Shown here piece after piece: positions 3,427-33,268 of a stretch of 40,331 bases of DNA. How positions within the stretch are numbered: the first letter of the stretch is position 1; every line of letters begins with the position of its first letter. The notes under the pieces are model-generated. The model was not told the origin of the DNA, did not search any database, and saw nothing but the letters and a program-made list of their open reading frames with translations. The stretch covers positions 1 through 40,331 of IMG/VR virus record IMGVR_UViG_3300032770_000051; one strand, given 5' to 3'. The translations under genes were made by a program, and so were the position numbers. This stretch comes from a virus.

Positions 3427-5439
3427 TCAGTATCCTACCGCGATGAAGTTTTGTGTAATTCCGCCAGTTATCCAACCATTTGAACCATTCCAGGTTTGTG
3501 CATAACCTTGGTAATAAGTAGTATTCGAGCCTGAATTAGTAACGCCATGTACTGATGGTCCAAACTGAGGCCACCGGCCAGCAGCGTTGCCTTCAGTAAC
3601 GACTATATTTGTCAAAGCATTAGGGAACACTATTGGAAAATACGGATACGATGGATTGCCAACATTGTTTGTGCCCCATTGAATGATAAATCCATTTGGC
3701 ATACGGCAGTAGCCATTGGAAGAACCATTTAGAGCAAAATCGCTTAACGCAACTATGCGAGTAGCATCTCCAGAGCCATAAGCCCCGACAGAAATTCGTC
3801 CATAATAGCCTTGGATCAGACTTGGAGCAATAAAGTTACCGTTGTTGTAGAAATTAAAGCCTTGACTGCCAGAAACAAGCGACGTTACACCGCTGCCAGG
3901 ATTAGCTTGCAAATAATAGCCGCTAGCAAAACTTAAAAAAGGAGTTCCACTAATATTACCAGCATAAAATGCTCCACCAAAGCTATTGTACGCAAAATAA
4001 GTAGTACCTTGGCAAACAAGACTGGCATTAGCAGTGATCTGACCGTTGGCGCTAATGGTTCCGCTTACATTAAGATCTGTAAGAACTGAAAGAGTTCCAT
4101 TGACTGTCTGACTGCTACTTACTGTAAGAGCACCGCCTATGGTCGTACCCGCGCCAGTACCGTCGATAACTACTTGCCCGTTGCTTAAATTCCAATAAAA
4201 TGGGCGATAACTGTTCCAAGTTCCAGTCGGAGAACCGGATGCAGTCTGCATAAGATAGCAGGTGGCATTATCATTTCGCAGCATCACACCATAACTGGCA
4301 GCTACAGCACGGAATTGACCACCATTACCACCATTATCAATACCAGTAACGTTTACACCATTGCTAAATGTCGCCAGTCCAGTGCCAACAGTTGTGCCTG
4401 TTACTGACAGGTTGTTGTTTAAAGTCACTGCGCCTGTTACGCTCAAGGTACTGCTCAAAGTGGTTGCACCTTGTGCAGCAAAAGTACCTGTAACCGAGGT
4501 ATTATTACCAACGGTAAGAGTACCTGCAACTGTAGCACTACCGCCGATTGCAAAGCTGCCAGACGCACCCAGAGTTGAAGGATCGCCTGCAATAATTCGG
4601 AAATTAGTTCCATCCGGCTCAACTGCAATCCAGCCCTTAGCTACGACTGTAATTGAAGTTTGACCGCTGAAACTGCTGCCAACAAAAGTACCAGAACCTG
4701 CACTTACGGTAAAAGCATAACCGCTATAGCCACCGACAATAACCGGGCCGTTGTTGGAAGTGAGATAGCCCGAAGAAAAAGTAACAACAAGACTGGCTGC
4801 ATTGCAGTTGATATTTTTACCGCCATCACCTGCAACAACAGAATAATTTGAAGTGATTGTTACTGTACGATTACCGTAGCCTCTGGCCAAGAAGGCATTA
4901 GGACTAATTTCAATCAGTTGCCATTCCGTACCGTCGAAGATCAGAGTTGAATAACCACCAGCCGAAAGTTCACCACCAATCAGTGCCGTACCATTGGGAT
5001 AGGTAATGTTTTTATTACCAGTTCCCATCCAGTTCAGCGTCGAAGCGCCGGTACAAGTTGCAGCAACTTTAACCGAGATAGACAAACCAGCAATCGGTGC
5101 TGGAAAAGTCAAACTTCCAGGCGCAGCAATAACTAGTGCATTAGTCGTACCTGTATCTAAGAAGCTCGGAGCATTGAGCAATGATTGCCAAAACTGCGAC
5201 CAGTAGGTATTCAAAACCCCATTGTCTTGAATATTCTGGTTGATTATCCCGCCCATAAAGTTAGAAATCGCTGCGGCCACAAAGCTCGGCTGGCGCACAG
5301 CCTTATTTACTTGAGTCGATTGGGCAATACCAGTCACAAAGCCATTAACAACAACTGTATCAGAAACCCAAGCCGACTGAGATTCAACACCGGCCCCGGC
5401 ACCAGTAGCAAAAGGAAGGAAATCAATTGTTACAGTCAT
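3427..5439 (-). CDS. Tail fibre protein, receptor-binding
   Basis: A 670-residue fibre. Residues 1-178 are an attachment module (starts MTVTIDFLPFATG) that is clearly duplicated in the 177-residue gene at 5806-6339. Residues about 110-150 contain the DTGTTNA...TGASTLNWMG module common in phage fibres. The middle (about 290-500) is made of repeated beta-strand units such as GTLTVGNNTSVTG and TLSSTLSVTGAVTL, typical of a trimeric shaft. The end (about 570-670) looks like the gp53-like fibre tip: MPNGFIIQWGTN..., FPIVFPNAL and a final IAVGY. The tip should contact the host surface. The ATG follows the previous stop by 12 bases with AGAG upstream. Confidence 0.85.
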   Translation of the reverse strand: MTVTIDFLPFATGAGAGVESQSAWVSDTVVVNGFVTGIAQSTQVNKAVRQPSFVAAAISNFMGGIINQNIQDNGVLNTYWSQFWQSLLNAPSFLDTGTTNALVIAAPGSLTFPAPIAGLSISVKVAATCTGASTLNWMGTGNKNITYPNGTALIGGELSAGGYSTLIFDGTEWQLIEISPNAFLARGYGNRTVTITSNYSVVAGDGGKNINCNAASLVVTFSSGYLTSNNGPVIVGGYSGYAFTVSAGSGTFVGSSFSGQTSITVVAKGWIAVEPDGTNFRIIAGDPSTLGASGSFAIGGSATVAGTLTVGNNTSVTGTFAAQGATTLSSTLSVTGAVTLNNNLSVTGTTVGTGLATFSNGVNVTGIDNGGNGGQFRAVAASYGVMLRNDNATCYLMQTASGSPTGTWNSYRPFYWNLSNGQVVIDGTGAGTTIGGALTVSSSQTVNGTLSVLTDLNVSGTISANGQITANASLVCQGTTYFAYNSFGGAFYAGNISGTPFLSFASGYYLQANPGSGVTSLVSGSQGFNFYNNGNFIAPSLIQGYYGRISVGAYGSGDATRIVALSDFALNGSSNGYCRMPNGFIIQWGTNNVGNPSYPYFPIVFPNALTNIVVTEGNAAGRWPQFGPSVHGVTNSGSNTTYYQGYAQTWNGSNGWITGGITQNFIAVGY

Positions 5440-5451
5440 TTATTTTCTCTC

Positions 5452-5793
5452 TTAGCTTGTTACTGCCACGCCGGACCAAATTGCGCACCAAGTATGAACT
5501 GAAGAAATGTTCTTCACAAATACGGGAGTTCCTGTTCCAGAACCACCACCTTCACCTGTATTTCGCCCATTTGATGCAAATGCAAAAGTACCCAAATTAT
5601 AGCCACTTGCCGCAGGAAGACTTGCTACAGCATAAGAGCCAATATTTCCACAAGCCGCCTGTTGCATGCTGACCGAAGACGTTGTTCCGCCAGCCGGAGT
5701 GACTGTTCCTGTCGAAAGATTCCCGACACCAATCAACTGGCTTCCCGTGACAATAATAGAAATATTGTCAATAGATATTGTATTACCTGACAT
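5452..5793 (-). CDS. Small tail-fibre-region protein with Gly-rich motif
   Basis: A 113-residue beta-rich protein located between two fibre genes that share a module. Its second half has SLPAASGYNLGTFAFASNGR, then GEGGGSGTGTPVF, and a C-terminal W...SGVAVTS. From memory this SNGR...GEG-x-GTG pattern occurs in short phage proteins near fibre genes, often as a domain that ends or caps fibres. There are two cysteines, at about 48 and 102. A role as a structural accessory of the fibre is likely; the exact role is unknown. Confidence 0.6.
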   Translation of the reverse strand: MSGNTISIDNISIIVTGSQLIGVGNLSTGTVTPAGGTTSSVSMQQAACGNIGSYAVASLPAASGYNLGTFAFASNGRNTGEGGGSGTGTPVFVKNISSVHTWCAIWSGVAVTS

Positions 5794-9067: not shown

Positions 9068-10771
9068 TTACAGTTCGGCATCACCTAAAAAGGTTAGACT
9101 ACCACCACCATTATCACCCCAACTGAAAACTGCACCGCATCCGCTAAATGATGAGTAACTACCGATCCCAGTAATTTGTACGCCTTGTGCAGAAGCCGCA
9201 GCAAGTGTTAACGTACCTAAAGACGTATTAGTTGATACGCCTCCTGGTCCTTGAGCAATAACGCTGGTAGAACCTGTATAAGTTATAGTTGGTACTGCTC
9301 TTTTTGGTTGTGCCCAAGGGATATAGCTTCGTGTATCACCATTAGGCTGATAGGTAATACCTTGAATACGTGGTGCTGGCAACACTTCATAATATCTTTG
9401 ACACAAACCAGACTCAACAGTAATAGGTCTTGTATCAAACTGAGTCGCCGTTGAACCTACTTCAAATTGAACGCCTGATATATAAAATGTCGCGCCATTA
9501 GCTCCGACAACTGAGTTGGTTCCATTTATGCCGAAATAATTTCCAGTCTGCCACGTATATGATGAACCCCAATAAGTGCTACCAACACCCATAGAAAATT
9601 GAAGAAATAGCGAACCAACACTGCCTGTTAAAACCCAAGTGCCACCAGTATCACCAGGAACTGTAAAAGAAATATAAGTCCAGGTATTTGCTACAGGAAT
9701 ACTATAAGCATAGGGATATGACCGTGTTGAAGCAAAATTCTTTACAGTAACAGCAAATCCACCAGTCAGTGAACTATACACCCAAAAAGAAATAGTAACT
9801 GGCTTTGCATTTGCAGTACCCCAACCTAAATCAGCGACATGCCAAGCTTCAATGGGTTGGTAAAAAGTGAAAAAATCGCCGGCTGCCAGACTATAAGACG
9901 AAGATGATTGAAATCCTAAATAGGCTGTTTGATTTGGTGGCATTGCAACGCTATTGAGATTTTGACCCCATGTGCCTTTAGTAGCCAGATTAGCACCAAA
10001 ATACCAACGGTCAATAGTATATCCAACAGCTGTACCACTAGCACCACCATTTCGAACATCGAATATCATCGCGCCATTGATCAGTCGATTCTTCATGCCA
10101 GTTGAAAGTCCAGCAAGCTGACTAAGAATCGTAACCTGATTAGGATTTACCGCAGGTTGAGCAATCGGCCTAATTGCACCAGCACCTAAAATCCATTGCC
10201 CAGCCGTACCATCATACATTACTTCAGTATTTACTGTTTGAAAAAGTTCATATCCTTGCAAAAGACTAGCACCTTGGACAATGTATCGAGCACCACCTCC
10301 AGCGTCTAACGTTGCTGAACCTGTATTGGTACCTGCTGGTACAAATATAACTTTCATTCCGTCTTTATAAGACGTAATAGGTGGAGTTAGTGCAACAACA
10401 TACGCATTTGTAGTACCTGTGTCAGGTCCTGCCATATTAAATTCATTATATTGAATAACCTCATTGAAATTTTGTAAAACTCCCTGCGTGACGTCGGAGA
10501 AAATTGTATCGCCACTTGCCCATGCAACAGCAGTCGAACCTTCCTGCCCACGCAAAACGGTAAGATTTAAACCTGAAACCGAAGTGACATAGACAATCTC
10601 AAATACACCCTCAGTCGCTGGATGAATCAGAGTCAAGGCCAAATACTGCCCTGCAGGGATTGTTGGAAACCCACTAACACTAGCAACAGGAATAGTCGTC
10701 GTACCAGATGTAATTCCACTGGTCAAAGACGTGTCAATGTTATTCCCAAAAACGAAAACTTTAGTCGTCAT
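9068..10771 (-). CDS. Tail fibre/baseplate-attached receptor-binding protein with carbohydrate-binding-like domain
   Basis: A 567-residue protein inserted between the spike gene and the wedge genes. Residues 1-115 are a beta domain starting MTTKVFVFGNN, with LRGQEGSTAVAWASGD, a common phage start module. Residues about 116-170 repeat the DTGTTNAYVVALTPP...TGSATLDAGG module seen in the other fibres. From about residue 228 (KNRLINGAMIFDVRNGG, then IDRWYFG) it has a beta-sandwich of the carbohydrate-binding type, ending in ISGVQFEVGSTATQFDTRP and GLCQRYYEV, features typical of host-range proteins. The last 90 residues form another beta domain. It likely binds a surface glycan. Confidence 0.8.
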   Translation of the reverse strand: MTTKVFVFGNNIDTSLTSGITSGTTTIPVASVSGFPTIPAGQYLALTLIHPATEGVFEIVYVTSVSGLNLTVLRGQEGSTAVAWASGDTIFSDVTQGVLQNFNEVIQYNEFNMAGPDTGTTNAYVVALTPPITSYKDGMKVIFVPAGTNTGSATLDAGGGARYIVQGASLLQGYELFQTVNTEVMYDGTAGQWILGAGAIRPIAQPAVNPNQVTILSQLAGLSTGMKNRLINGAMIFDVRNGGASGTAVGYTIDRWYFGANLATKGTWGQNLNSVAMPPNQTAYLGFQSSSSYSLAAGDFFTFYQPIEAWHVADLGWGTANAKPVTISFWVYSSLTGGFAVTVKNFASTRSYPYAYSIPVANTWTYISFTVPGDTGGTWVLTGSVGSLFLQFSMGVGSTYWGSSYTWQTGNYFGINGTNSVVGANGATFYISGVQFEVGSTATQFDTRPITVESGLCQRYYEVLPAPRIQGITYQPNGDTRSYIPWAQPKRAVPTITYTGSTSVIAQGPGGVSTNTSLGTLTLAAASAQGVQITGIGSYSSFSGCGAVFSWGDNGGGSLTFLGDAEL

Positions 10772-22975: not shown

Positions 22976-24067
22976 TTAGATTCCGTCACGATAGCCCACA
23001 GTTTCAGGGTAAACCACTTCAAGCACGCCGAGACGGCAGAAATAAGTGCTCTTATGATAAATCCCATCATACTGAATAGGAGTGCGTTGCATCAGAGTCA
23101 TCGGATAACGAATACGTTCCGGGTCTTTGGTATATGCAACCATACGATCGACAGTACCAGTCTGGCCAATCGTACCGCCAACACCTGCACCCTGGCACCA
23201 CTTCAGCGGGAAGATTTTCAGCTTCGCAACGCCAGAAGAAGTCAACAGATTATTCTCCAGAAGATAACGCAGGATCGACACGTTACCAGCATTAGAAACA
23301 ATCTGCGTAGAGATGTAGGAGTATTGTGCCGGTGGCAGCAACAGCCGATTCGGTGGGAAAGACCAACCAGAAGCTGCCCAGACGTTATTCAGAATTTCGT
23401 TAACGTCGTTCAGAATTTCCGGCGGGGTTTTGTTTACCCACTGAGTTGCATTGCTTGCACCGACTGCAACGTTTGCAACGTTAGAAACCTGACCAAGATT
23501 AGCCGAGGCATTGTTGTAGTTAACCATGCCGTATTCGGAGAAAGTCGTATCTCCGTAATACACCATTTCGTCGATATCCATCTGGTGCTTCAGTTGCATA
23601 CCGAAAAACTTCTGCTGGTCAATTGGACGACCAACAAGTGCTGCCGATTCCAGTTCCAGAATCGTATACTTCAGTTCCATGCTCCAGGGACGCAGAGCGT
23701 GGGGAATTTTGGCAATGTCAACACTAATGCCAGTAATCTGAGTTGTGTCTTTACCAACCCAGGCTTTGCCGTTGCCAATACTTTGGCCAACACCCGGACC
23801 AGAAGCAGAACCATAGGTCGAGAGCGTGAAGCTCGAAACTTCGTTTGCGATTGTCACATCTTCACGAAGATCAACGTCACGCCCCCAAGTTACGGCTGCA
23901 AGTGGCTCATGCAGGCGCAGGTCGAGGCGTTCAAGCTCGCCAACCAAGAAAGCGCCTGTTGAGTCAGCGACCTTTCCGTCCGCCATCTTAATACGAATGG
24001 GAAGTTGCTTCCCACGCATATTACCTTTGGCGTCGTGACTATATTCCTTGCCATCAAACGTGAGCAT
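22976..24067 (-). CDS. Major capsid protein, DUF2184-like
   Basis: A 363-residue protein. It carries the DUF2184 capsid signatures: an N-terminal arm, a first core segment (LHEPLAAVTWGRDVDLREDVTIANEVSSFTL at about 53-83), then ITGISVDIAKIPHALRPWSMELKYTILELESAALVGRPIDQQKFFGMQLKHQMDIDEMVYYGD (about 111-173), and WSFPPNRLLLPPAQYSYISTQ (about 235-255). The D-x-x-V-Y-x-G-D motif and the P-x-x-L-L-L-P-P motif are typical of HK97-fold capsids of this family. It forms the prohead shell. It is preceded by the cement-like protein and the protease/scaffold, the expected order. Confidence 0.9.
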   Translation of the reverse strand: MLTFDGKEYSHDAKGNMRGKQLPIRIKMADGKVADSTGAFLVGELERLDLRLHEPLAAVTWGRDVDLREDVTIANEVSSFTLSTYGSASGPGVGQSIGNGKAWVGKDTTQITGISVDIAKIPHALRPWSMELKYTILELESAALVGRPIDQQKFFGMQLKHQMDIDEMVYYGDTTFSEYGMVNYNNASANLGQVSNVANVAVGASNATQWVNKTPPEILNDVNEILNNVWAASGWSFPPNRLLLPPAQYSYISTQIVSNAGNVSILRYLLENNLLTSSGVAKLKIFPLKWCQGAGVGGTIGQTGTVDRMVAYTKDPERIRYPMTLMQRTPIQYDGIYHKSTYFCRLGVLEVVYPETVGYRDGI

Positions 24068-24662: not shown

Positions 24663-25748
24663 TTAGCGAGTAGAACCACCAGTACCCCAAATTGCTTCAG
24701 ACTGTTCACGAAGTTTACGGCTCAAATCACCAATCGAACCAACAGCAATCGCGCCAGCCGGCGAACCGACATTAGACACAGTGAACGCGGCCTGATTATT
24801 GCGGTCACGATACATCCCCGCAAGAGCACGGAAAGTAGTTGTGACAGAATCGCAGGTCATCCGGCGAAGATCGGCGCCGCGAGTCAGATTGTGAAGATCA
24901 GCGCCTTGTTCCATATCCTGCGAAACATGATTCAGTACCCGGCGACGAAAACCGCACATGGTATTAATGACATTAACCGGATGCTTCGAATCCACCGTCG
25001 GAATACGAACACCAGGAATAATAATCTCTGCATCAGCAATCATATCCTGCCACTGTTCATGCAGGCGGGCCATTGTATCACCGGCTTTACGACGACGATC
25101 GCCAGTAGTTCCTGCAAATTCAGCACCGGAAGAACCAACAGGAGCTTCTGCACCAAATCCACGAGGAACGGATTTGTTTTTGGTATTGGTTTCGCCGGGA
25201 TGGTCCATTTCAATCCCGTTGCCTTCGGAATAATCACCGCCTTCGTAGATGCCTTTATTCGGCGGATGATTAAAATGCGGCTCCCGGCGTTCCAGATTTG
25301 CTTCATCACCAAAGCCAGACGGTTCTTCTTCTTCACCACCAGATGCCGGTTCGCCTTCACCGCCACCTTCACCAATTCCCAATGCTTCGCAAATCATATC
25401 CAGCTTTTGGGCCAATTGGCCATGTTGCTGTTGAAGCATAGCAACGTCATCCTGGACTTTCTTCATGCCGCCGTCGCCCAACGCAGGTTCAGTTGCTCCT
25501 GCTGCCGGAAGTGCTGGTGCTGGTGTAGGACTTTGCATAGTATTGTCTCCGCCCGCTGAATGGGGATGTAAATGAATATGAGTGTGATCGCCACCAGATT
25601 CAGGAGCCGTAGAGGCAACTTTTTCTTCGGCTTCTTTTGTAAGAGAAGCCAGTTCATTAGCATCCCTTGCCTTAAACGCACGACCAATAAAATCCGCAAT
25701 CCAATTTGTCGGCTTCACTTCGGTAGTGGTTTCAGATTCAGTCGTCAT
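24663..25748 (-). CDS. Probable nested scaffold protein from an internal start
   Basis: Inside the DUF2213 gene, codon 189 is an ATG (25748-25746) with AAAGGAG and a 9-base spacer, a better ribosome site than many gene starts in this window. It would make a 361-residue protein consisting of the scaffold part alone, starting MTTESETTTEVK just after the protease domain. Lambda C/Nu3 and many other phages make a scaffold from an internal start in the protease gene. The ribosome site and its location exactly at the domain border support this; expression is inferred. Confidence 0.55.
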   Translation of the reverse strand: MTTESETTTEVKPTNWIADFIGRAFKARDANELASLTKEAEEKVASTAPESGGDHTHIHLHPHSAGGDNTMQSPTPAPALPAAGATEPALGDGGMKKVQDDVAMLQQQHGQLAQKLDMICEALGIGEGGGEGEPASGGEEEEPSGFGDEANLERREPHFNHPPNKGIYEGGDYSEGNGIEMDHPGETNTKNKSVPRGFGAEAPVGSSGAEFAGTTGDRRRKAGDTMARLHEQWQDMIADAEIIIPGVRIPTVDSKHPVNVINTMCGFRRRVLNHVSQDMEQGADLHNLTRGADLRRMTCDSVTTTFRALAGMYRDRNNQAAFTVSNVGSPAGAIAVGSIGDLSRKLREQSEAIWGTGGSTR

Positions 25749-26312
25749 CGCTTTAATCTCCTTTGGTTTGCTATCATATATTCTGCATTTTGGACCGCAA
25801 CGGCCACTTTGAACTAAAGCAACATGGTTTCCAATGATGTTGACTTGTTTAGCTTGGCCGGGGCCGATCTGCACATAATCAGCATCGTAGCCGCAAGAGA
25901 CTTCACGTTTGCGGTTGCTTAAAATTTCTTCGATTGCCAATTCATCTGTAACTAAAATATCTGCCATCAAAATATCATCAAGAATCCCCCCACCACGCCG
26001 GGGTGAAAGCACTGTACCCACAGCTACATCACGCCAATTTTCCGGCGTAACATCTACAATTTCACCATTAACCGAAGGATGTTCAATTACAAAAGGCTTG
26101 CCAGCAAAAGATGCAATAGACTCTGGTTTAAAGACTTCCTCCGGTGGGCGAATAACATGAACAAATCCGTTGCCATCTGGCTCTAACGGCATTTCCTGCG
26201 ACGTATAAAGCTGCTCGCCAGTCCTGGCAATAATAACATCCTTACAGATTAAGAACCCCTCCGGGGTTCGGAGAAGCTTATCTGAAAGCTGTTCTGTAAA
26301 AAAGAAACGCAT
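24663..26312 (-). CDS. Prohead protease/scaffold, DUF2213-like
   Basis: A 549-residue fused protein. Residues 1-180 resemble the DUF2213 protease: FLICKDVIIARTGEQLY, the FVIEHPSV motif (about 74-82), RKREVSCGYDADY with Ser139, and NHVALVQSGRCGPKCRIYD with His163. Residues 240-256 contain a His-rich bead (HTHIHLHPH) followed by GG. The rest is a scaffold: a Gln/Leu helix (KVQDDVAMLQQQHGQLAQKLDMICEAL at about 285-311), a long acidic, Gly-rich linker, and a helical C-terminus with CGFRRRVLNH and RRMTCDSVTTTFRALAGMYRDRNN. The start has AGGA with an 8-base spacer. It processes and shapes the prohead and is probably removed by self-cleavage. Confidence 0.85.
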   Translation of the reverse strand: MRFFFTEQLSDKLLRTPEGFLICKDVIIARTGEQLYTSQEMPLEPDGNGFVHVIRPPEEVFKPESIASFAGKPFVIEHPSVNGEIVDVTPENWRDVAVGTVLSPRRGGGILDDILMADILVTDELAIEEILSNRKREVSCGYDADYVQIGPGQAKQVNIIGNHVALVQSGRCGPKCRIYDSKPKEIKAMTTESETTTEVKPTNWIADFIGRAFKARDANELASLTKEAEEKVASTAPESGGDHTHIHLHPHSAGGDNTMQSPTPAPALPAAGATEPALGDGGMKKVQDDVAMLQQQHGQLAQKLDMICEALGIGEGGGEGEPASGGEEEEPSGFGDEANLERREPHFNHPPNKGIYEGGDYSEGNGIEMDHPGETNTKNKSVPRGFGAEAPVGSSGAEFAGTTGDRRRKAGDTMARLHEQWQDMIADAEIIIPGVRIPTVDSKHPVNVINTMCGFRRRVLNHVSQDMEQGADLHNLTRGADLRRMTCDSVTTTFRALAGMYRDRNNQAAFTVSNVGSPAGAIAVGSIGDLSRKLREQSEAIWGTGGSTR

Positions 26313-27089: not shown

Positions 27090-27563
27090 TTACTTATAAA
27101 ACACATCCACATAAACACCAGCCACTGCGGTGCTAGTATCACCATCAGCGCCACCATGAGTCAAACAATAACCCATTCCGAGAGGGAACTTCTCACCGAA
27201 ATCGCCATTATTAATCGGGAAATAAGTAATTGTCGAAGTCGGAATGGTAATCGAAAGTTCAAGATTCGTCGTTGCACTGCAAGTCGGCGCCGCAGTGCCG
27301 TTGTAGAAATGTAAATACTCCAGCGTTGCAACAGTATTGTTGACCTGAACACCAAACAATGTGCGTTGACCGGCTGCACCAACCAAATGAGAATTAGTTG
27401 TAGTTGTGCTGGCATAATGGTCATCCAACATACCCTGACCAGCCGGAACAATACCAAAGTTCTGTTGCGGCGAACCCAGAACTGGCGGCGCGGCCATTGC
27501 CGAACCAGCGCAAGTTACTGCTAAAGCTGTAGCAGCAACCCCAAATTTAAGAATCTTTTTCAT
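27090..27563 (-). CDS. Exported virion-decoration-like protein, paralogue 1
   Basis: A 157-residue protein with a Sec-type signal peptide: Lys-rich start (MKKILKFG), hydrophobic core and an AMA|APP cleavage site after about residue 24. The mature part has GSPQQNFG, then FGVQVNNTVATLEYLHFYN, APTCSATTN (Cys), a beta stretch with IPTSTITYFPINNGDFGEKFPLGMGYCLT (Cys), and DGDTSTAVAGVYVDVFYK at the end. The end pattern F-x-x-G-x-x-Y-x-L-T...D-x-x-T-A-V-A...V-x-V-x-x-Y-K is common in phage proteins of about 110 residues that I believe decorate virions. It is a close paralogue of the next gene. The signal peptide is unusual. Confidence 0.75.
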   Translation of the reverse strand: MKKILKFGVAATALAVTCAGSAMAAPPVLGSPQQNFGIVPAGQGMLDDHYASTTTTNSHLVGAAGQRTLFGVQVNNTVATLEYLHFYNGTAAPTCSATTNLELSITIPTSTITYFPINNGDFGEKFPLGMGYCLTHGGADGDTSTAVAGVYVDVFYK

Positions 27564-27576
27564 ATTTCAAATCCTC

Positions 27577-28047
27577 TTACTTATACAGCACGTCGAGGAT
27601 AACGCCAGTTGCGGCATTAGTATTATCACCGTCAGCGGCTGCACCAGTCAAGCAATAGCTCAATCCTGCAGGAAAGCTTTCACCAAACATTCCCTGGTTT
27701 ACAGCAACAACAGTCGTTGTAGAAACCGGAATCTTGTAGGTGAACTGAATATTCGTTGTCCCAGTGCAAGTCGGCGCTGTTGCTGAATTGTAAAAGTGCA
27801 AATAATATGCTGTGCCTGTGGTATTATTCACCACAAAACCAAACATCGTATGCTGACCAGCAGCAACAAGAGTTGAATTAGTCGTTGCAGCAGAAGTCAA
27901 ATGGCTATCAGTCAAGCCAGGACCAACTGCCTGAATACCAAAATTCTGTTGTGGCGAACCCAAAGCCGGAGGCGCAGCAAAAGCCGCACAGCCCATTGCA
28001 AGAGCCAAAATAGCACCTGCAACAGTAGTTTTCAGAAAATTCTTCAT
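27577..28047 (-). CDS. Exported virion-decoration-like protein, paralogue 2
   Basis: A 156-residue protein with a signal peptide (MKNFLKTTVAGAILALAMG, cleavage AFA|APP). The mature part aligns throughout with the 157-residue neighbour: LGSPQQNFGI, GQHTMFGFVVNNTTGTAYYLHFYN, APTCTGTTN (Cys), F-x-E-S-FPAGLSYCLTG (Cys) and VILDVLYK. Roughly half of the residues are identical. The two Cys of the mature part are conserved in both copies and could form a disulphide in the periplasm. The gene pair is separated by only 13 bases. A ribosome site AAAGGAAT precedes the ATG. Function is inferred from the fold-like pattern only. Confidence 0.75.
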   Translation of the reverse strand: MKNFLKTTVAGAILALAMGCAAFAAPPALGSPQQNFGIQAVGPGLTDSHLTSAATTNSTLVAAGQHTMFGFVVNNTTGTAYYLHFYNSATAPTCTGTTNIQFTYKIPVSTTTVVAVNQGMFGESFPAGLSYCLTGAAADGDNTNAATGVILDVLYK

Positions 28048-28375: not shown

Positions 28376-28639
28376 TTATTGCTCAGTTACATTGTAGTCA
28401 ACTATAGGCCCATTTTGCGGCGTCGCAATAGGCAGGCCAGGAATAGTCTGCCTTGAGCCTGGCAAAAATGGCAGTGGAATCGTTCCACCAAAAGAATTTC
28501 TGTTCACTCCCGAAGTCTGTGGCGTTGTTCTTGGTGCCTGTTGCATCGAAATAACTTGCCGACCGCCAGTTTTAGGCAAAATCGACACTGTTCTCTGTTG
28601 CAACCGCTGTATAAAAGTTAAAGGACATGACGGATACAT
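28376..28639 (-). CDS. Small Pro/Gln-rich protein
   Basis: An 87-residue protein rich in Pro, Thr, Gln and Gly (QQAPRTTPQTSGVNRNSFGG, IPLPFLPGSRQTIPGLPI), probably with little stable structure. Its ATG overlaps the stop of the PSD-like gene (TGATG), so translation is coupled. No family is recognised. It might be an accessory of the enzyme before it; there is no direct evidence. Confidence 0.55.
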   Translation of the reverse strand: MYPSCPLTFIQRLQQRTVSILPKTGGRQVISMQQAPRTTPQTSGVNRNSFGGTIPLPFLPGSRQTIPGLPIATPQNGPIVDYNVTEQ

Positions 28640-29340
28640 CAGATTAATACCTCAAACAGTGCATCAACACCAGCCTGAACATGCACTCCAGCCCTTAAAA
28701 GGGGCTTCACATATTGTCCTGGAATAATCAAATCAACTTGACTACCCCAGCGAATCGCTGAAAATCGAGCATTTTGAGGGAAAAAATCATTCTGCCGAAC
28801 TGAAAACGGTGTAATCGTATTCACTTCATCGTCTGCAATCTGAACAATATAATAATTAACCTCTTTAACTGGGCAATAAATCTTATTTACCATCCGGGCA
28901 TTGTAAATCTCATAGCCCGAATAGTTGAAATTCACTAAATCCTTCATCAATTCGTTTTCAGTCGCCAACATTGGCTGATTATACGTCAAAATCGGCGGAA
29001 AAGGACGAAAATTTATCAATCCTTCTGTCGGCATCCGATTTACATGCGGGTCGTAATACGTCATAAACACGCCAGCGACCCAATAATCCTTCTCCGTCAA
29101 TTCTTCTTGGACAATATCTGAAAGTTTATGATATTTTCCTTTAATTCCAATGACTCCCGAAGCTGAAATTCGGTCAATATACAAAAGCACACCATCAGCA
29201 GCCGAATAAACTACTTTATGGTCCATAATCCGTGCCCGATACGGATCGCGGAAAAACTTTTCCTCCGACATTTGCCGTTCAGGCACCGAATCAAACTCTG
29301 CTTTCGCTCTTTTTGTCCAAATCTTCAGTTCCTCAGCCAC
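28639..29340 (-). CDS. Phosphatidylserine-decarboxylase-like enzyme
   Basis: A 233-residue protein, the size of the short soluble PSD type. I place the start at GTG 29340 (GGAAGG with a 7-base spacer, overlapping the upstream stop as GTGGCTGA); an upstream TTG has no good ribosome site. It shows the family blocks in order: FFRDPYR (29-35), YSAADGVLLYIDRI with Asp49, GVFMTYYDPHVNRMPTEG with His99, NARMVNK, VNYYIVQIAD and IRWGSQVDLIIP with the self-cleaving Ser200. The Asp-His-Ser set for forming the pyruvoyl group is therefore intact. The substrate may be phosphatidylserine or, as in some relatives, a free amino acid. Such enzymes are not usual in phages. Confidence 0.8.
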   Translation of the reverse strand: MAEELKIWTKRAKAEFDSVPERQMSEEKFFRDPYRARIMDHKVVYSAADGVLLYIDRISASGVIGIKGKYHKLSDIVQEELTEKDYWVAGVFMTYYDPHVNRMPTEGLINFRPFPPILTYNQPMLATENELMKDLVNFNYSGYEIYNARMVNKIYCPVKEVNYYIVQIADDEVNTITPFSVRQNDFFPQNARFSAIRWGSQVDLIIPGQYVKPLLRAGVHVQAGVDALFEVLI

Positions 29341-30253
29341 TTTCCGACCTTCCTGGCTGAAAATCAAAATAATTCAGATGCATTACCAAACAACTTAGCG
29401 CCGCACCTGATTTTCCAAACTCAGAAATGTTAAAAACAACACTTTCCATCGAATTATCAGCCGCAGTCTTTTCAACAAAATCTACCAACTGCCTTTGAAC
29501 CGCATAATCTGCATCTTTTGCGCTTAACTGCCTAATATCAGAGCCGACCAAAACAAGACGCCTAACCCGGACACAATTAGTAGCTCCGGCCACCATAATT
29601 TCTTTGGGCGCGGCAATGATTTCAGCAACTTTTTCCAGTGCTTTAATCTCGTGAGAATCGATTTCTGAAGTTGCAACAACAATCTTTTCCCTCGTCAGTG
29701 GAAAAATCAAACAATCCAGATGATAGGCTTCTGGATTTTTCAGTCTTATCGGGATAATATTCATATCATAGGTATCAGCAAACCATTTAATCGCTGCAGA
29801 AGTTGTTCTCATGCCATAAGACATGATATAAATATTATCCCTCAAATACTTAGCATCTGCCTCACCTTCAAAGTATTTAGGACAAATATCTACTACATTT
29901 TCAACACCCAACATCTTAAGAAATGCAAACCCAGGTAATGTTTCGCCGCGGCGCGGAGGGGACCGAAAGGTGCTTACAACAACCGTATAATCTTTTAAAT
30001 GCGGAAGAACAACACCAAGATTTGCTACAAACGGTTGATCTTGAAGCCCAGGATAAGAAGGAACGAGATAAACCAAACCAACAGAAGAGAGAAAGTTATA
30101 AATCTGCAAAAACTGGACTAGAGCTTTGTTTCGATCAATTTTTCTTTCAGCAGGTGACAATTCCTGCATGAAAGCATTGTTCGCTTCGCCCGTGTCCAAA
30201 TAGAATGGCGGAGACATTGCAAAAACTGGATAAGATACTTTATTGTAATCCAT
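29333..30253 (-). CDS. Amidinotransferase/DDAH-like enzyme
   Basis: A 306-residue protein, typical length for the dimethylarginine dimethylaminohydrolase/arginine deiminase/amidinotransferase fold. The catalytic set is visible: FEGEAD at 128-133, YHLDC with His178 and Asp180, and the C-terminal SEFGKSGAALSCLVMHLN with Cys288. These enzymes attack guanidino groups through the Cys and either hydrolyse or transfer an amidine. The N-terminus (SPPFYLDTGEANNAFMQ) also fits the family's substrate loop. The gene overlaps the PSD-like gene by eight bases, so the two are coupled. Whether it acts on arginine, a modified arginine, an amino-lipid head group or another compound cannot be told. Confidence 0.7.
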   Translation of the reverse strand: MDYNKVSYPVFAMSPPFYLDTGEANNAFMQELSPAERKIDRNKALVQFLQIYNFLSSVGLVYLVPSYPGLQDQPFVANLGVVLPHLKDYTVVVSTFRSPPRRGETLPGFAFLKMLGVENVVDICPKYFEGEADAKYLRDNIYIMSYGMRTTSAAIKWFADTYDMNIIPIRLKNPEAYHLDCLIFPLTREKIVVATSEIDSHEIKALEKVAEIIAAPKEIMVAGATNCVRVRRLVLVGSDIRQLSAKDADYAVQRQLVDFVEKTAADNSMESVVFNISEFGKSGAALSCLVMHLNYFDFQPGRSESG

Positions 30254-30256
30254 ATC

Positions 30257-30814
30257 TCAAGCTGCACTTTTCTCTTTGTGTGTTTTTTCGATTTCTAATT
30301 GTATAAATTCTTCTTGTTTTTGTTTACGGGCAGAAATAGCTTCCTCTAAAGAAGAATAATAGCCAAGATGGTGCAATTTATAATTATACTGTATATAAGC
30401 ATGCCATTTATTTTTCTCACAACTCCAAGAAACTCCAATATGACCTGAAGTGTTATTACGAGGTACATTTATTTTATTTAAATTATTTCCAGATTTTGTT
30501 GTTAAACGTAAGTTTTCTTCACGGCAGTCTAATCCATTACAATTAATATGGTCAATCAGATTTTTGCTTTTACCCATAATAAAAGCATGTAGATGTGTCA
30601 TTTTATATTCTAAATGCCAACCCTTGTAACCACCACTCTTCTTCCACTCACGCCTACCGGTAGGAATACTATTAGTTGCATAAGTGCAACTTCCGCTAGT
30701 AGTTAAGTGCCAAGGTCCAGCTTTAACTACTCTTTCATAATGTTTTTCATCAACAATGGCAAAATCTTTATTATTAGATAAAGGAATTAGTTTACAATTT
30801 GCTGGACAGTCCAA
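30257..30814 (-). CDS. HNH homing endonuclease with AP2 domain
   Basis: A 185-residue protein. Residues 70-105 hold the HNH centre (MTHLHAFIMG, LIDHINCNGLDCREENLRL). Residues about 122-165 are an AP2-like DNA-binding domain (SGHIGVSWSCEKNKWHAYI, then LGYYSSLEEAISARK). This layout is standard for free-standing HNH homing endonucleases of phages. The gene is noticeably richer in A and T than its neighbours, a sign of separate origin. The start is TTG at 30814. It lies immediately downstream of repeat copy C, in front of the amidino-enzyme gene; I see no intron sequence around it. Confidence 0.85.
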   Translation of the reverse strand: MDCPANCKLIPLSNNKDFAIVDEKHYERVVKAGPWHLTTSGSCTYATNSIPTGRREWKKSGGYKGWHLEYKMTHLHAFIMGKSKNLIDHINCNGLDCREENLRLTTKSGNNLNKINVPRNNTSGHIGVSWSCEKNKWHAYIQYNYKLHHLGYYSSLEEAISARKQKQEEFIQLEIEKTHKEKSAA

Positions 30815-30930: not shown

Positions 30931-31164
30931 TTAACCCATATCTTCTAAACAAGAACCGCAGTGAACTTCATCTTTACGTGGAAGAAAGGCTTTTCCACAA
31001 ATTTTGCAGAGCGGCAATTGACCATCAACCATTCTTGCGAAGTCTGCATCCGAATATCTTCGGATAGTTGAACAAATAAACGTGCAATCAGACTTAAGCT
31101 GCTTTACTGTTTTGACAAGTGGATCATCGGGCCTTCGGCCCGGTTCATGCTGGTTTGTAGACAT
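30931..31164 (-). CDS. Small zinc-ribbon protein
   Basis: A 77-residue protein. The start at 31164 is chosen because it overlaps the portal stop by 20 bases; a longer reading would lie far inside the portal gene. The C-terminal part has two Cys pairs, CKICGKAF and CGSC, 17 residues apart, forming a treble-clef or zinc-ribbon pattern. The N-terminal half is helical with KTVKQLKSDCTFICSTIRRYSDADFARM. A hairpin (31128-31142) lies inside its early codons. A DNA- or protein-binding role is likely, but nothing points to a specific one. Confidence 0.6.
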   Translation of the reverse strand: MSTNQHEPGRRPDDPLVKTVKQLKSDCTFICSTIRRYSDADFARMVDGQLPLCKICGKAFLPRKDEVHCGSCLEDMG

Positions 31165-33268
31165 TGCCAATTTCAAGCCAACGCTTGACCCCTGGAATAT
31201 CTGTTTCACGTACCGAAAGAATGTTGCCACCATTTGGATAAGATGCTTGATACGCCTGGACAGCAGAATTTGCATCCTTAAATCCAAACAATATCTTATG
31301 CTCATCGAAAGTGCTTGCGTCTGCTCCGGCGGAATTAAGCTTGCCCTGATTCACAATCCAAACTCTCTGCGAATCAGCGTAAGGTCCGACGAAACAATCT
31401 AATCCTTCACCAAATCCTTCCGCCGAGCGGCTATTTTGGATATAGCCGTAGTCTGCGGCAAGCGGCGGGAAGTCGGGAAACCGAATCTCTCCCACAAAGT
31501 TTTCCAGTGCGATGGGAATACCCGCGAACTCGATATAGTGCTGGGAGTTGATTCCGTTGATTGCGTTTGCAATGTCATCTACTGCCTCCGTTAAAGAGGG
31601 CGTAGAATTTGGATTCATTATTCCTTTAGGCGAATTAATTACCTCATACAGATTGCACCCACCGGGCGGTTCAGGATTACTTGCTGAATCCAATTCTTCG
31701 CTAGTGTCAGGGATATTTTCTTCTGGAGTTTTAGGCGGTGTAACATTTCCAGAAGCATTAAAGTTCCCAGGTTTGACGCCAGACTCGGATGCCAGACTTG
31801 AACCACCCGGCCCCGGTGGGGCCGGAGTTGGGTCTGCTTGTTGTTGTAGTTTGCGCTTCGCAAAAGTTAGTCTTGCTTGTTGAATATCGGCCTCGGTGAT
31901 ATTTGTCCAGAGGCCGTTGACGATAGAAGCCTGTTTTAGTTCTTTGAGCGCGAGCGCGTCTGGAACTAGGCCAGATTCCCATGCTGAAAGAACGGCGGCA
32001 GTAACTTGCGCCCCGGCGGTGGCACGCTCTGTTTCCGAAAGTTGCCACAAAGGATTGAAGACGAAATTAAAGTCTTCGGGTAATTCTATTCCTTCGGATT
32101 TGGCCATCGCGCGGTAGATGGTCGTAATCATTGGCCGAAGTTCGCGCTCTTGGCGTTGTCTTATTCCGTCGTAATAGTTCCGCATGTCAGATTCGCCGGT
32201 TGAATTAAGACCGGCAGGAGATTGTCCAAAGAGTCTAACCAGCGGAATTTGCAGCGCACCGGAGATTTGCTGACCAAAGTGAATAAGAGCATCAGCGATA
32301 CCGGAGAAGGAAGTACCTGCGGAAACTTGTGCCGCGAAATCGTCTTCTGAGTCAATTAAGGTTATTCCTTCAATGCCTTGATACCGGCGCATCATTTCGA
32401 CATACTGTTGAAGCTGGTTTACCTGCATCCCACCCGTGGCGATAATTTCACGGAGTTTGCTGATTTTTAAAGTCCGGATGTAGGATTTGTAGACGAGTTG
32501 TGCTGCGCCATTAGTCGCAGAATCGAAGGCGATAAGTCGATCATAGAGCCTTTCCACTACGGAAATGCCCCACATATTTTCCATAACCCTTTGCCAGTAG
32601 GGAAGTCGGACGCCTTCATGGCGTAAAACTCGGGTGTGATGGATGCGCATACCCTCGAAAGTTACACCAGTACCTGATGCGATAACCCAGTAACTGGCCG
32701 GAACTTGAGAATCGTCACCAACGCCGCGGACCATATGATTGAGATCAGGTTCAACCATCCAGCGATCGTAGACCATAAGGCCACGAAATGCACCCAGGCC
32801 AATGCGAGAAATATCGAGAGGGTTTCGCGGGTCTTGCCCGTCAATCATTAGCGCGGCTAAAGCCCCGCCGTATAGGCGGCCCCAACGAATTGTATCGTTG
32901 ATAGCGGGCCAAACTCCCCATTTAATTGCAGCAGTTTCGAGTTTCTTAATTGCGCCAGGGGGCATTTCGCTGGTGATGGTAATGCCCATTTTAGTCATGT
33001 CATCGGCAATTGCGTCAATTGCAACACCAACGATCCAAGAACCGCGATGAATCCATTCCAGCAGAGTTCTGTCACGAGTGACAGGAAGAAACCCGTAGGT
33101 CGAGTCACTAAGCGCGTTGTTTGTCCCAAGGCCCAAATTTAGGGAAAAGTTTTGGAACGTATCGCCAGTAAACTTTTCGCTTAATCTCGTTTCTGTGCCT
33201 TGAGCGCGGGAACGTTTCCCGTCGCTGCCAGCAGAAACTCGATATCTGGGTTTATCTCGGTCGGCCAT
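31145..33268 (-). CDS. Portal protein (DUF1073-like) fused to an inorganic-pyrophosphatase-like domain
   Basis: A 707-residue protein. Residues about 35-450 are a DUF1073 portal: RTLLEWIHRGSWIVGVAIDAIADDMTKMG, WGRLYGGALAALMI, GTSFSGIADALIHFGQQISGALQIPLVRLFGQSPAGLNSTGESDMRNYYDGI. A Pro/Gly/Ser-rich linker follows (475-540). Residues about 583-700 then match the InPase-like domain of phage polyvalent proteins: DYGYIQNS, GEGLDCFVGPYADSQRVWIVNQ (Asp624), FDEHKILFGFKDANSAVQAY (654-673) and VKRWLEI. The portal forms the dodecameric DNA gate. What the extra domain does in the capsid is unknown. It follows a small gene with an overlap of 17 bases. Confidence 0.85.
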   Translation of the reverse strand: MADRDKPRYRVSAGSDGKRSRAQGTETRLSEKFTGDTFQNFSLNLGLGTNNALSDSTYGFLPVTRDRTLLEWIHRGSWIVGVAIDAIADDMTKMGITITSEMPPGAIKKLETAAIKWGVWPAINDTIRWGRLYGGALAALMIDGQDPRNPLDISRIGLGAFRGLMVYDRWMVEPDLNHMVRGVGDDSQVPASYWVIASGTGVTFEGMRIHHTRVLRHEGVRLPYWQRVMENMWGISVVERLYDRLIAFDSATNGAAQLVYKSYIRTLKISKLREIIATGGMQVNQLQQYVEMMRRYQGIEGITLIDSEDDFAAQVSAGTSFSGIADALIHFGQQISGALQIPLVRLFGQSPAGLNSTGESDMRNYYDGIRQRQERELRPMITTIYRAMAKSEGIELPEDFNFVFNPLWQLSETERATAGAQVTAAVLSAWESGLVPDALALKELKQASIVNGLWTNITEADIQQARLTFAKRKLQQQADPTPAPPGPGGSSLASESGVKPGNFNASGNVTPPKTPEENIPDTSEELDSASNPEPPGGCNLYEVINSPKGIMNPNSTPSLTEAVDDIANAINGINSQHYIEFAGIPIALENFVGEIRFPDFPPLAADYGYIQNSRSAEGFGEGLDCFVGPYADSQRVWIVNQGKLNSAGADASTFDEHKILFGFKDANSAVQAYQASYPNGGNILSVRETDIPGVKRWLEIGNVYKPA

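Follow-up and report, generated by a model that had tools for sequence, protein, structure and literature searches.

A phage gene pair encoding a phosphatidylserine decarboxylase-like protein and an arginine dihydrolase-like enzyme, a possible route from arginine to a small amine

The window analysed here, a 40,331-nt stretch of viral DNA, carries on its minus strand a series of head genes that extends from a portal protein gene (31145..33268; PF06381, E 5e-92), whose product has a C-terminal InPase-like domain (PF18823, E 3e-18), to a major capsid protein gene (22976..24067; phrog_264, E 1e-69). Between these lie, on the same strand and in this order, an HNH endonuclease gene that is probably a homing gene (30257..30814; PF13392 and several HNH PHROGs), a gene for a guanidino-group-modifying enzyme nearest to ArgZ/AgrE (29333..30253), a gene for a pyruvoyl decarboxylase-like protein of the phosphatidylserine decarboxylase (PSD) superfamily (28639..29340), a gene for an 87 aa protein (28376..28639) directly downstream of the latter and a DUF2213 prohead protease/scaffold gene (24663..26312; PF09979, E 2e-47; phrog_530). 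The 87 aa protein gave no Pfam or PHROG hits and has a counterpart in the related locus L085. The two putative enzyme genes, hereafter termed partner and decarboxylase, form the cassette described below. No RNA families or tRNAs were found in the 40,331-nt window.

The original prediction had recognized a PSD-like enzyme at 28639-29340 while remaining silent on the strand; the plus strand of this segment contains many stops and the minus strand is open. The resulting protein of 233 aa begins at a GTG codon at 29340, a start backed by an AGGAAGG upstream and by L085, the nearest relative, in which the homologous start reads ATG-GCT; a longer TTG frame reaches 29367 and adds 9 to all residue numbers. 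Membership of the PSD superfamily was borne out by the match to PF02666 (E 5e-20, 72.3 bits against a cut-off of 22), and the residues assigned earlier to the family blocks are placed exactly when the GTG start is used: D49 in SAADG, H99 in DPHVNRMP and G199-S200 in RWGSQVD. In TTG numbering these are D58, H108 and S209, which do not vary among the relatives that cover the region. An AlphaFold model was obtained with a pLDDT of 89.8 and a pTM of 0.85 (Bacteroides and Campylobacter rows were left out of the alignments used for structure models). The fold comparison that had been suggested together with the prediction returned a PSD-family enzyme, the L-tryptophan decarboxylase PsiD (8x4q), as the sole convincing PDB match (E 2e-3, prob 1.00), a modest one with a TMq of 0.45 and only 16% identity; such a search may miss E. 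coli PSD, whose solved chains are deposited as cleaved subunits. PsiD belongs to the fungal psilocybin pathway and acts on a free amino acid, but it is larger than the phage protein and uses a substrate different from the one considered here. Judged from its sequence, the decarboxylase is a real and intact PSD-superfamily relative that shares with E. coli Psd and PF02666 the fold family and the predicted Asp, His and Gly-Ser catalytic and self-cleavage residues.

The partner gene, absent from the original prediction, is the key to function. It lies upstream of the decarboxylase gene, overlaps it by 8 nt and encodes a protein of 306 aa that matches PF19420 (E 8e-12). A profile built from 36 partner relatives matched first AgrE (6lrf, E 3e-28) and ArgZ (6jv0, E 1e-25), and the AlphaFold model (pLDDT 92.7) retrieved by Foldseek 13 top PDB structures that were all ArgZ/AgrE (best E 2.4e-21, TMt 0.87), with a clear gap between these (E 2e-21) and the next family, DDAH (E 4e-14). 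The partner residues E129, H178 and C288 occupy the catalytic positions of the superfamily and are invariant in relatives, and its R101 and R149 are found in ArgZ/AgrE as well. These cyanobacterial enzymes (Sll1336, Alr4995), the best match in both sequence and fold, possess a second, ornithine cyclodeaminase part, whereas the phage partners are single-domain proteins, about 23-26% identical to them and with residues of their own: E131, C181, S287 and H292, near the active site, are specific to the family and may indicate a substrate other than arginine. The fold of the partner is thus secure but not its precise reaction, as NCBIfam Arg_dihydro ranked first with 67.5 bits, far below its cut-off of 450, and dimethylargininase was nearly equal at 63.9 bits. 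We also considered N78, an invariant residue that aligns with ArgZ N71 (6juz is the N71S variant), as proof of a dihydrolase and dropped it as non-discriminating, because ordinary Bacteroidota homologues share this Asn.

Relatives of both genes were retrieved from viral contigs by alignment-based scans, which returned 157 decarboxylase and 120 partner relatives where a single-protein scan had returned none. Our set of loci drew on the best 80 of the 157 and the best 80 of the 120 and included a bacterial contig, a Bacteroides phage and the window itself. Both genes were present in 153 loci, falling into 36 clusters at 90% identity, and were immediate same-strand neighbours in 152 of them, the remaining one having a small open frame between the two; these counts measure linkage and not natural frequency, given that the loci overlap and that each search contributed no more than its best 80. 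The partner came first in 151 loci and the decarboxylase in one (L152). Loci with one gene comprised three environmental ones, truncated at the locus edge, and two from Fletcherviruses. Among cultured phages, the decarboxylase occurs in 45 of 50,697 records, all from Campylobacter or Bacteroides, and the partner accompanies it in every one of the 45, two further records carrying a partner relative alone. In the Campylobacter Fletchervirus NCTC12673 the two genes are about 42 kb apart, and therefore persist together without physical linkage. The two proteins also co-diverge, their pairwise distance matrices being correlated with r = 0.96 (as high in none of 2000 permutations), a value that could also result from shared phage ancestry. 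Both proteins are already held in PHROG 12670 (decarboxylase) and PHROG 12759, annotated as of unknown function, and none of the papers searched describes the phage gene pair. We conclude that the two genes constitute a widespread and overlooked phage cassette.

The location of the decarboxylase gene in the head cluster, pointed out earlier as unexpected, was confirmed by its position between the portal gene and the prohead protease and major capsid genes, and the association with head genes is not random. A T4-type major head protein gene is found near the cassette in 29 of the 36 clusters; in 23 it is the gene directly upstream, and in 27 the cassette is followed by a PhoH-like gene. In PHROG searches, examples from T4-type clusters gave phrog_138 for the major head protein, phrog_213 for the portal and phrog_207 for the protease; the head genes of the window gave phrog_264, phrog_146 and phrog_530. 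Cassette-free kin of the window phage (Edwardsiella ZHS and Burkholderia Magia) lack such genes in the interval from portal to major capsid. As the T4-type module is unrelated to that of the window and cassette-free kin exist, the cassette has found its way into two or more head modules that are unrelated. Fletcherviruses show a different placement, with the partner outside the head cluster.

Signs of small-molecule chemistry were found in other carriers. A scan of genome contigs with the partner returned a sole relative, in a Saprospiraceae MAG, where the pair is complete, where a gene for a MATE transporter overlaps its end in the same apparent operon and where a canonical PSD is encoded as well. 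Cassette-type partner genes occurred in two of 395 Bacteroidota genomes, this MAG and L163, the latter with a partner match at E 2e-103 and the decarboxylase gene absent within the 3.9 kb examined. An agmatine-deiminase-like gene stands directly after the pair in the viral contig L115 and is present in all six cassette-bearing Bacteroides phages, while a search of 50,697 phage records gave just 11 with such a relative; because the six Bacteroides phages form one lineage, these amount to two independent cases.

Taken together, these data led us to a reading, to which we give slightly less than even chances, in which the decarboxylase gene supplies one of the two enzymes of a mobile cassette that, during infection, converts arginine to a small cationic amine. 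In a first step, as fold and residues suggest, the ArgZ-like partner would hydrolyse the guanidino group of arginine to yield ornithine, ammonia and CO2. The PSD-fold protein would cleave itself at Gly199-Ser200 to form a pyruvoyl group and would then act on the soluble amino acid ornithine to give putrescine. The reverse order, from arginine through agmatine to putrescine, would require activities of the same two types and end in the same product. An ornithine or arginine decarboxylase activity of the PSD-like protein is suggested by its pairing and fold; we know of no PSD-fold ornithine or arginine decarboxylase. Expression with the head genes suggests that the amine may help to fill heads or support late replication, either as a counter-ion of the DNA or as a source of polyamines, and host enzymes could convert it to spermidine. 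Virions can contain polyamines (PMC7226272), although chlorovirus virions hold too little of them to neutralise the DNA as counter-ions (PMC7019647). Phages encode other putrescine enzymes (PMC9992855), and these phage and chlorovirus systems resemble the proposed cassette in leading from arginine or ornithine to putrescine, including by pyruvoyl decarboxylases; those, however, derive from AdoMet decarboxylase, unlike the PSD-fold phage protein, and no PSD-like or amidinotransferase enzyme is named there. More tentatively, the cassette could represent an undescribed and widespread phage pathway, inserted into unrelated head clusters, that supplies virus production with putrescine or a related amine by means of an arginine dihydrolase and a pyruvoyl decarboxylase of PSD fold; ornithine or arginine decarboxylase would then have a new origin, in the PSD family. 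Arguing against the arginine-to-putrescine reading are the partner score below the Arg_dihydro cut-off, the closeness of dimethylargininase, the family-specific partner residues, the modest PsiD match, the absence of spermidine synthase and AdoMet decarboxylase from the 28 phage records in which they were sought, and the Fletcherviruses, whose two genes are separate and whose partner gene lies outside the head cluster.

The same observations leave some room for a rather unlikely alternative, in which both enzymes act on another free guanidino or amino compound and produce a non-polyamine amine or a guanidine, for example an exported or signalling metabolite. The family-specific partner residues would fit such a substrate, as would the invariant D179 of the decarboxylase (TTG numbering), which takes the position of a Gly in canonical PSDs and to which a meaning can be given only by conjecture. 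The neighbouring MATE gene in the Saprospiraceae MAG points the same way, as do the phage records, in which neither the two polyamine enzymes nor, in those searched, a carbon-nitrogen hydrolase was found. Against this, the ArgZ-type fold and the shared R101 and R149 indicate arginine, and the agmatine-deiminase-like genes of two lineages are consistent with arginine and agmatine chemistry.

It is unlikely to a greater degree that the amine becomes part of phage DNA through base hypermodification, as known from phiW-14, a phage with putrescinyl-thymine. Genes compatible with such a role do occur: in L152 a Tet/JBP oxygenase gene (9358-10740) directly follows the cassette, and genes of the IMPDH/GMP-reductase type and for a dUTPase lie near it in Bacteroides phages (in SJC03, L002:10280-11254 and 5166-5666). 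The Tet/JBP gene is however the only one in 28 phage records, and a search for HMUDK-type kinases, run without a positive control, gave no match.

We consider improbable, too, that the protein is a true phosphatidylserine decarboxylase altering host phosphatidylethanolamine late in infection, the role first put forward for it. PF02666 membership and the intact catalytic residues speak for this role, and the family profile matches E. coli PSD over the N-terminal half (E 1e-10). The PSD-like proteins nevertheless reached none of the NCBIfam equivalog cut-offs for PSD and archaetidylserine decarboxylase (about 112-377 bits), their best scores being 59-73 bits. A strongly hydrophobic N-terminal stretch is absent in all 37 PSD-like proteins, as is an amphipathic domain of the length found in the E. 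coli type; the KD maximum at the decarboxylase N-terminus is about 1.0, compared with 2.6 in a canonical short PSD. E. coli PSD requires a three-helix amphipathic N-terminal domain to associate with membranes and to be cleaved efficiently, and its substrate must carry acyl chains (PMC7952604). The phage protein is also shorter than E. coli Psd; since canonical PSDs can be short too, we gave up length as proof of solubility and kept the missing hydrophobic N-terminus as the usable feature. Finally, the near-obligate partner is of an arginine-dihydrolase-like type, the fold match is to PsiD, and a canonical PSD is encoded anyway in the genome of the Saprospiraceae carrier. Of the two targets originally proposed, host lipids or an amino compound, the former is not supported, and an enzyme that decarboxylates a free amino compound is the more likely reading.

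Modification of a virion protein rather than a metabolite, for instance capsid protein deimination, would agree with the major capsid gene beside the cassette in 29 of 36 clusters but is very improbable, as the closest structures are free-arginine enzymes, head modules differ among carriers, the bacterial copy adjoins an exporter and not a capsid gene, and the Fletchervirus partner lies away from capsid genes.

If the arginine-to-amine reading is correct, annotations of phage genes as phosphatidylserine decarboxylase and amidinotransferase, for example in Campylobacter Fletcherviruses, would be misleading, as the two genes would stand for two steps in a single amine pathway that occurs in phages with differing head modules and hosts. 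The cassette would then reveal another evolutionary source of viral pyruvoyl amino acid decarboxylases and connect arginine metabolism with head assembly or DNA packaging in a way that can be tested.

Two further observations concern the window and its nearest relative. A pair of small proteins that resemble each other is encoded side by side at 27090-27563 and 27577-28047 of the window; both have N-termini like those of signal peptides and contain the motif LGSPQQNFGI, neither gave a Pfam or PHROG hit, and L085 has the pair too. The terminase large subunit of L085 (3056-6124) is 1022 aa long, compared with 678 aa in the window, and looks interrupted by an intein-like insertion.
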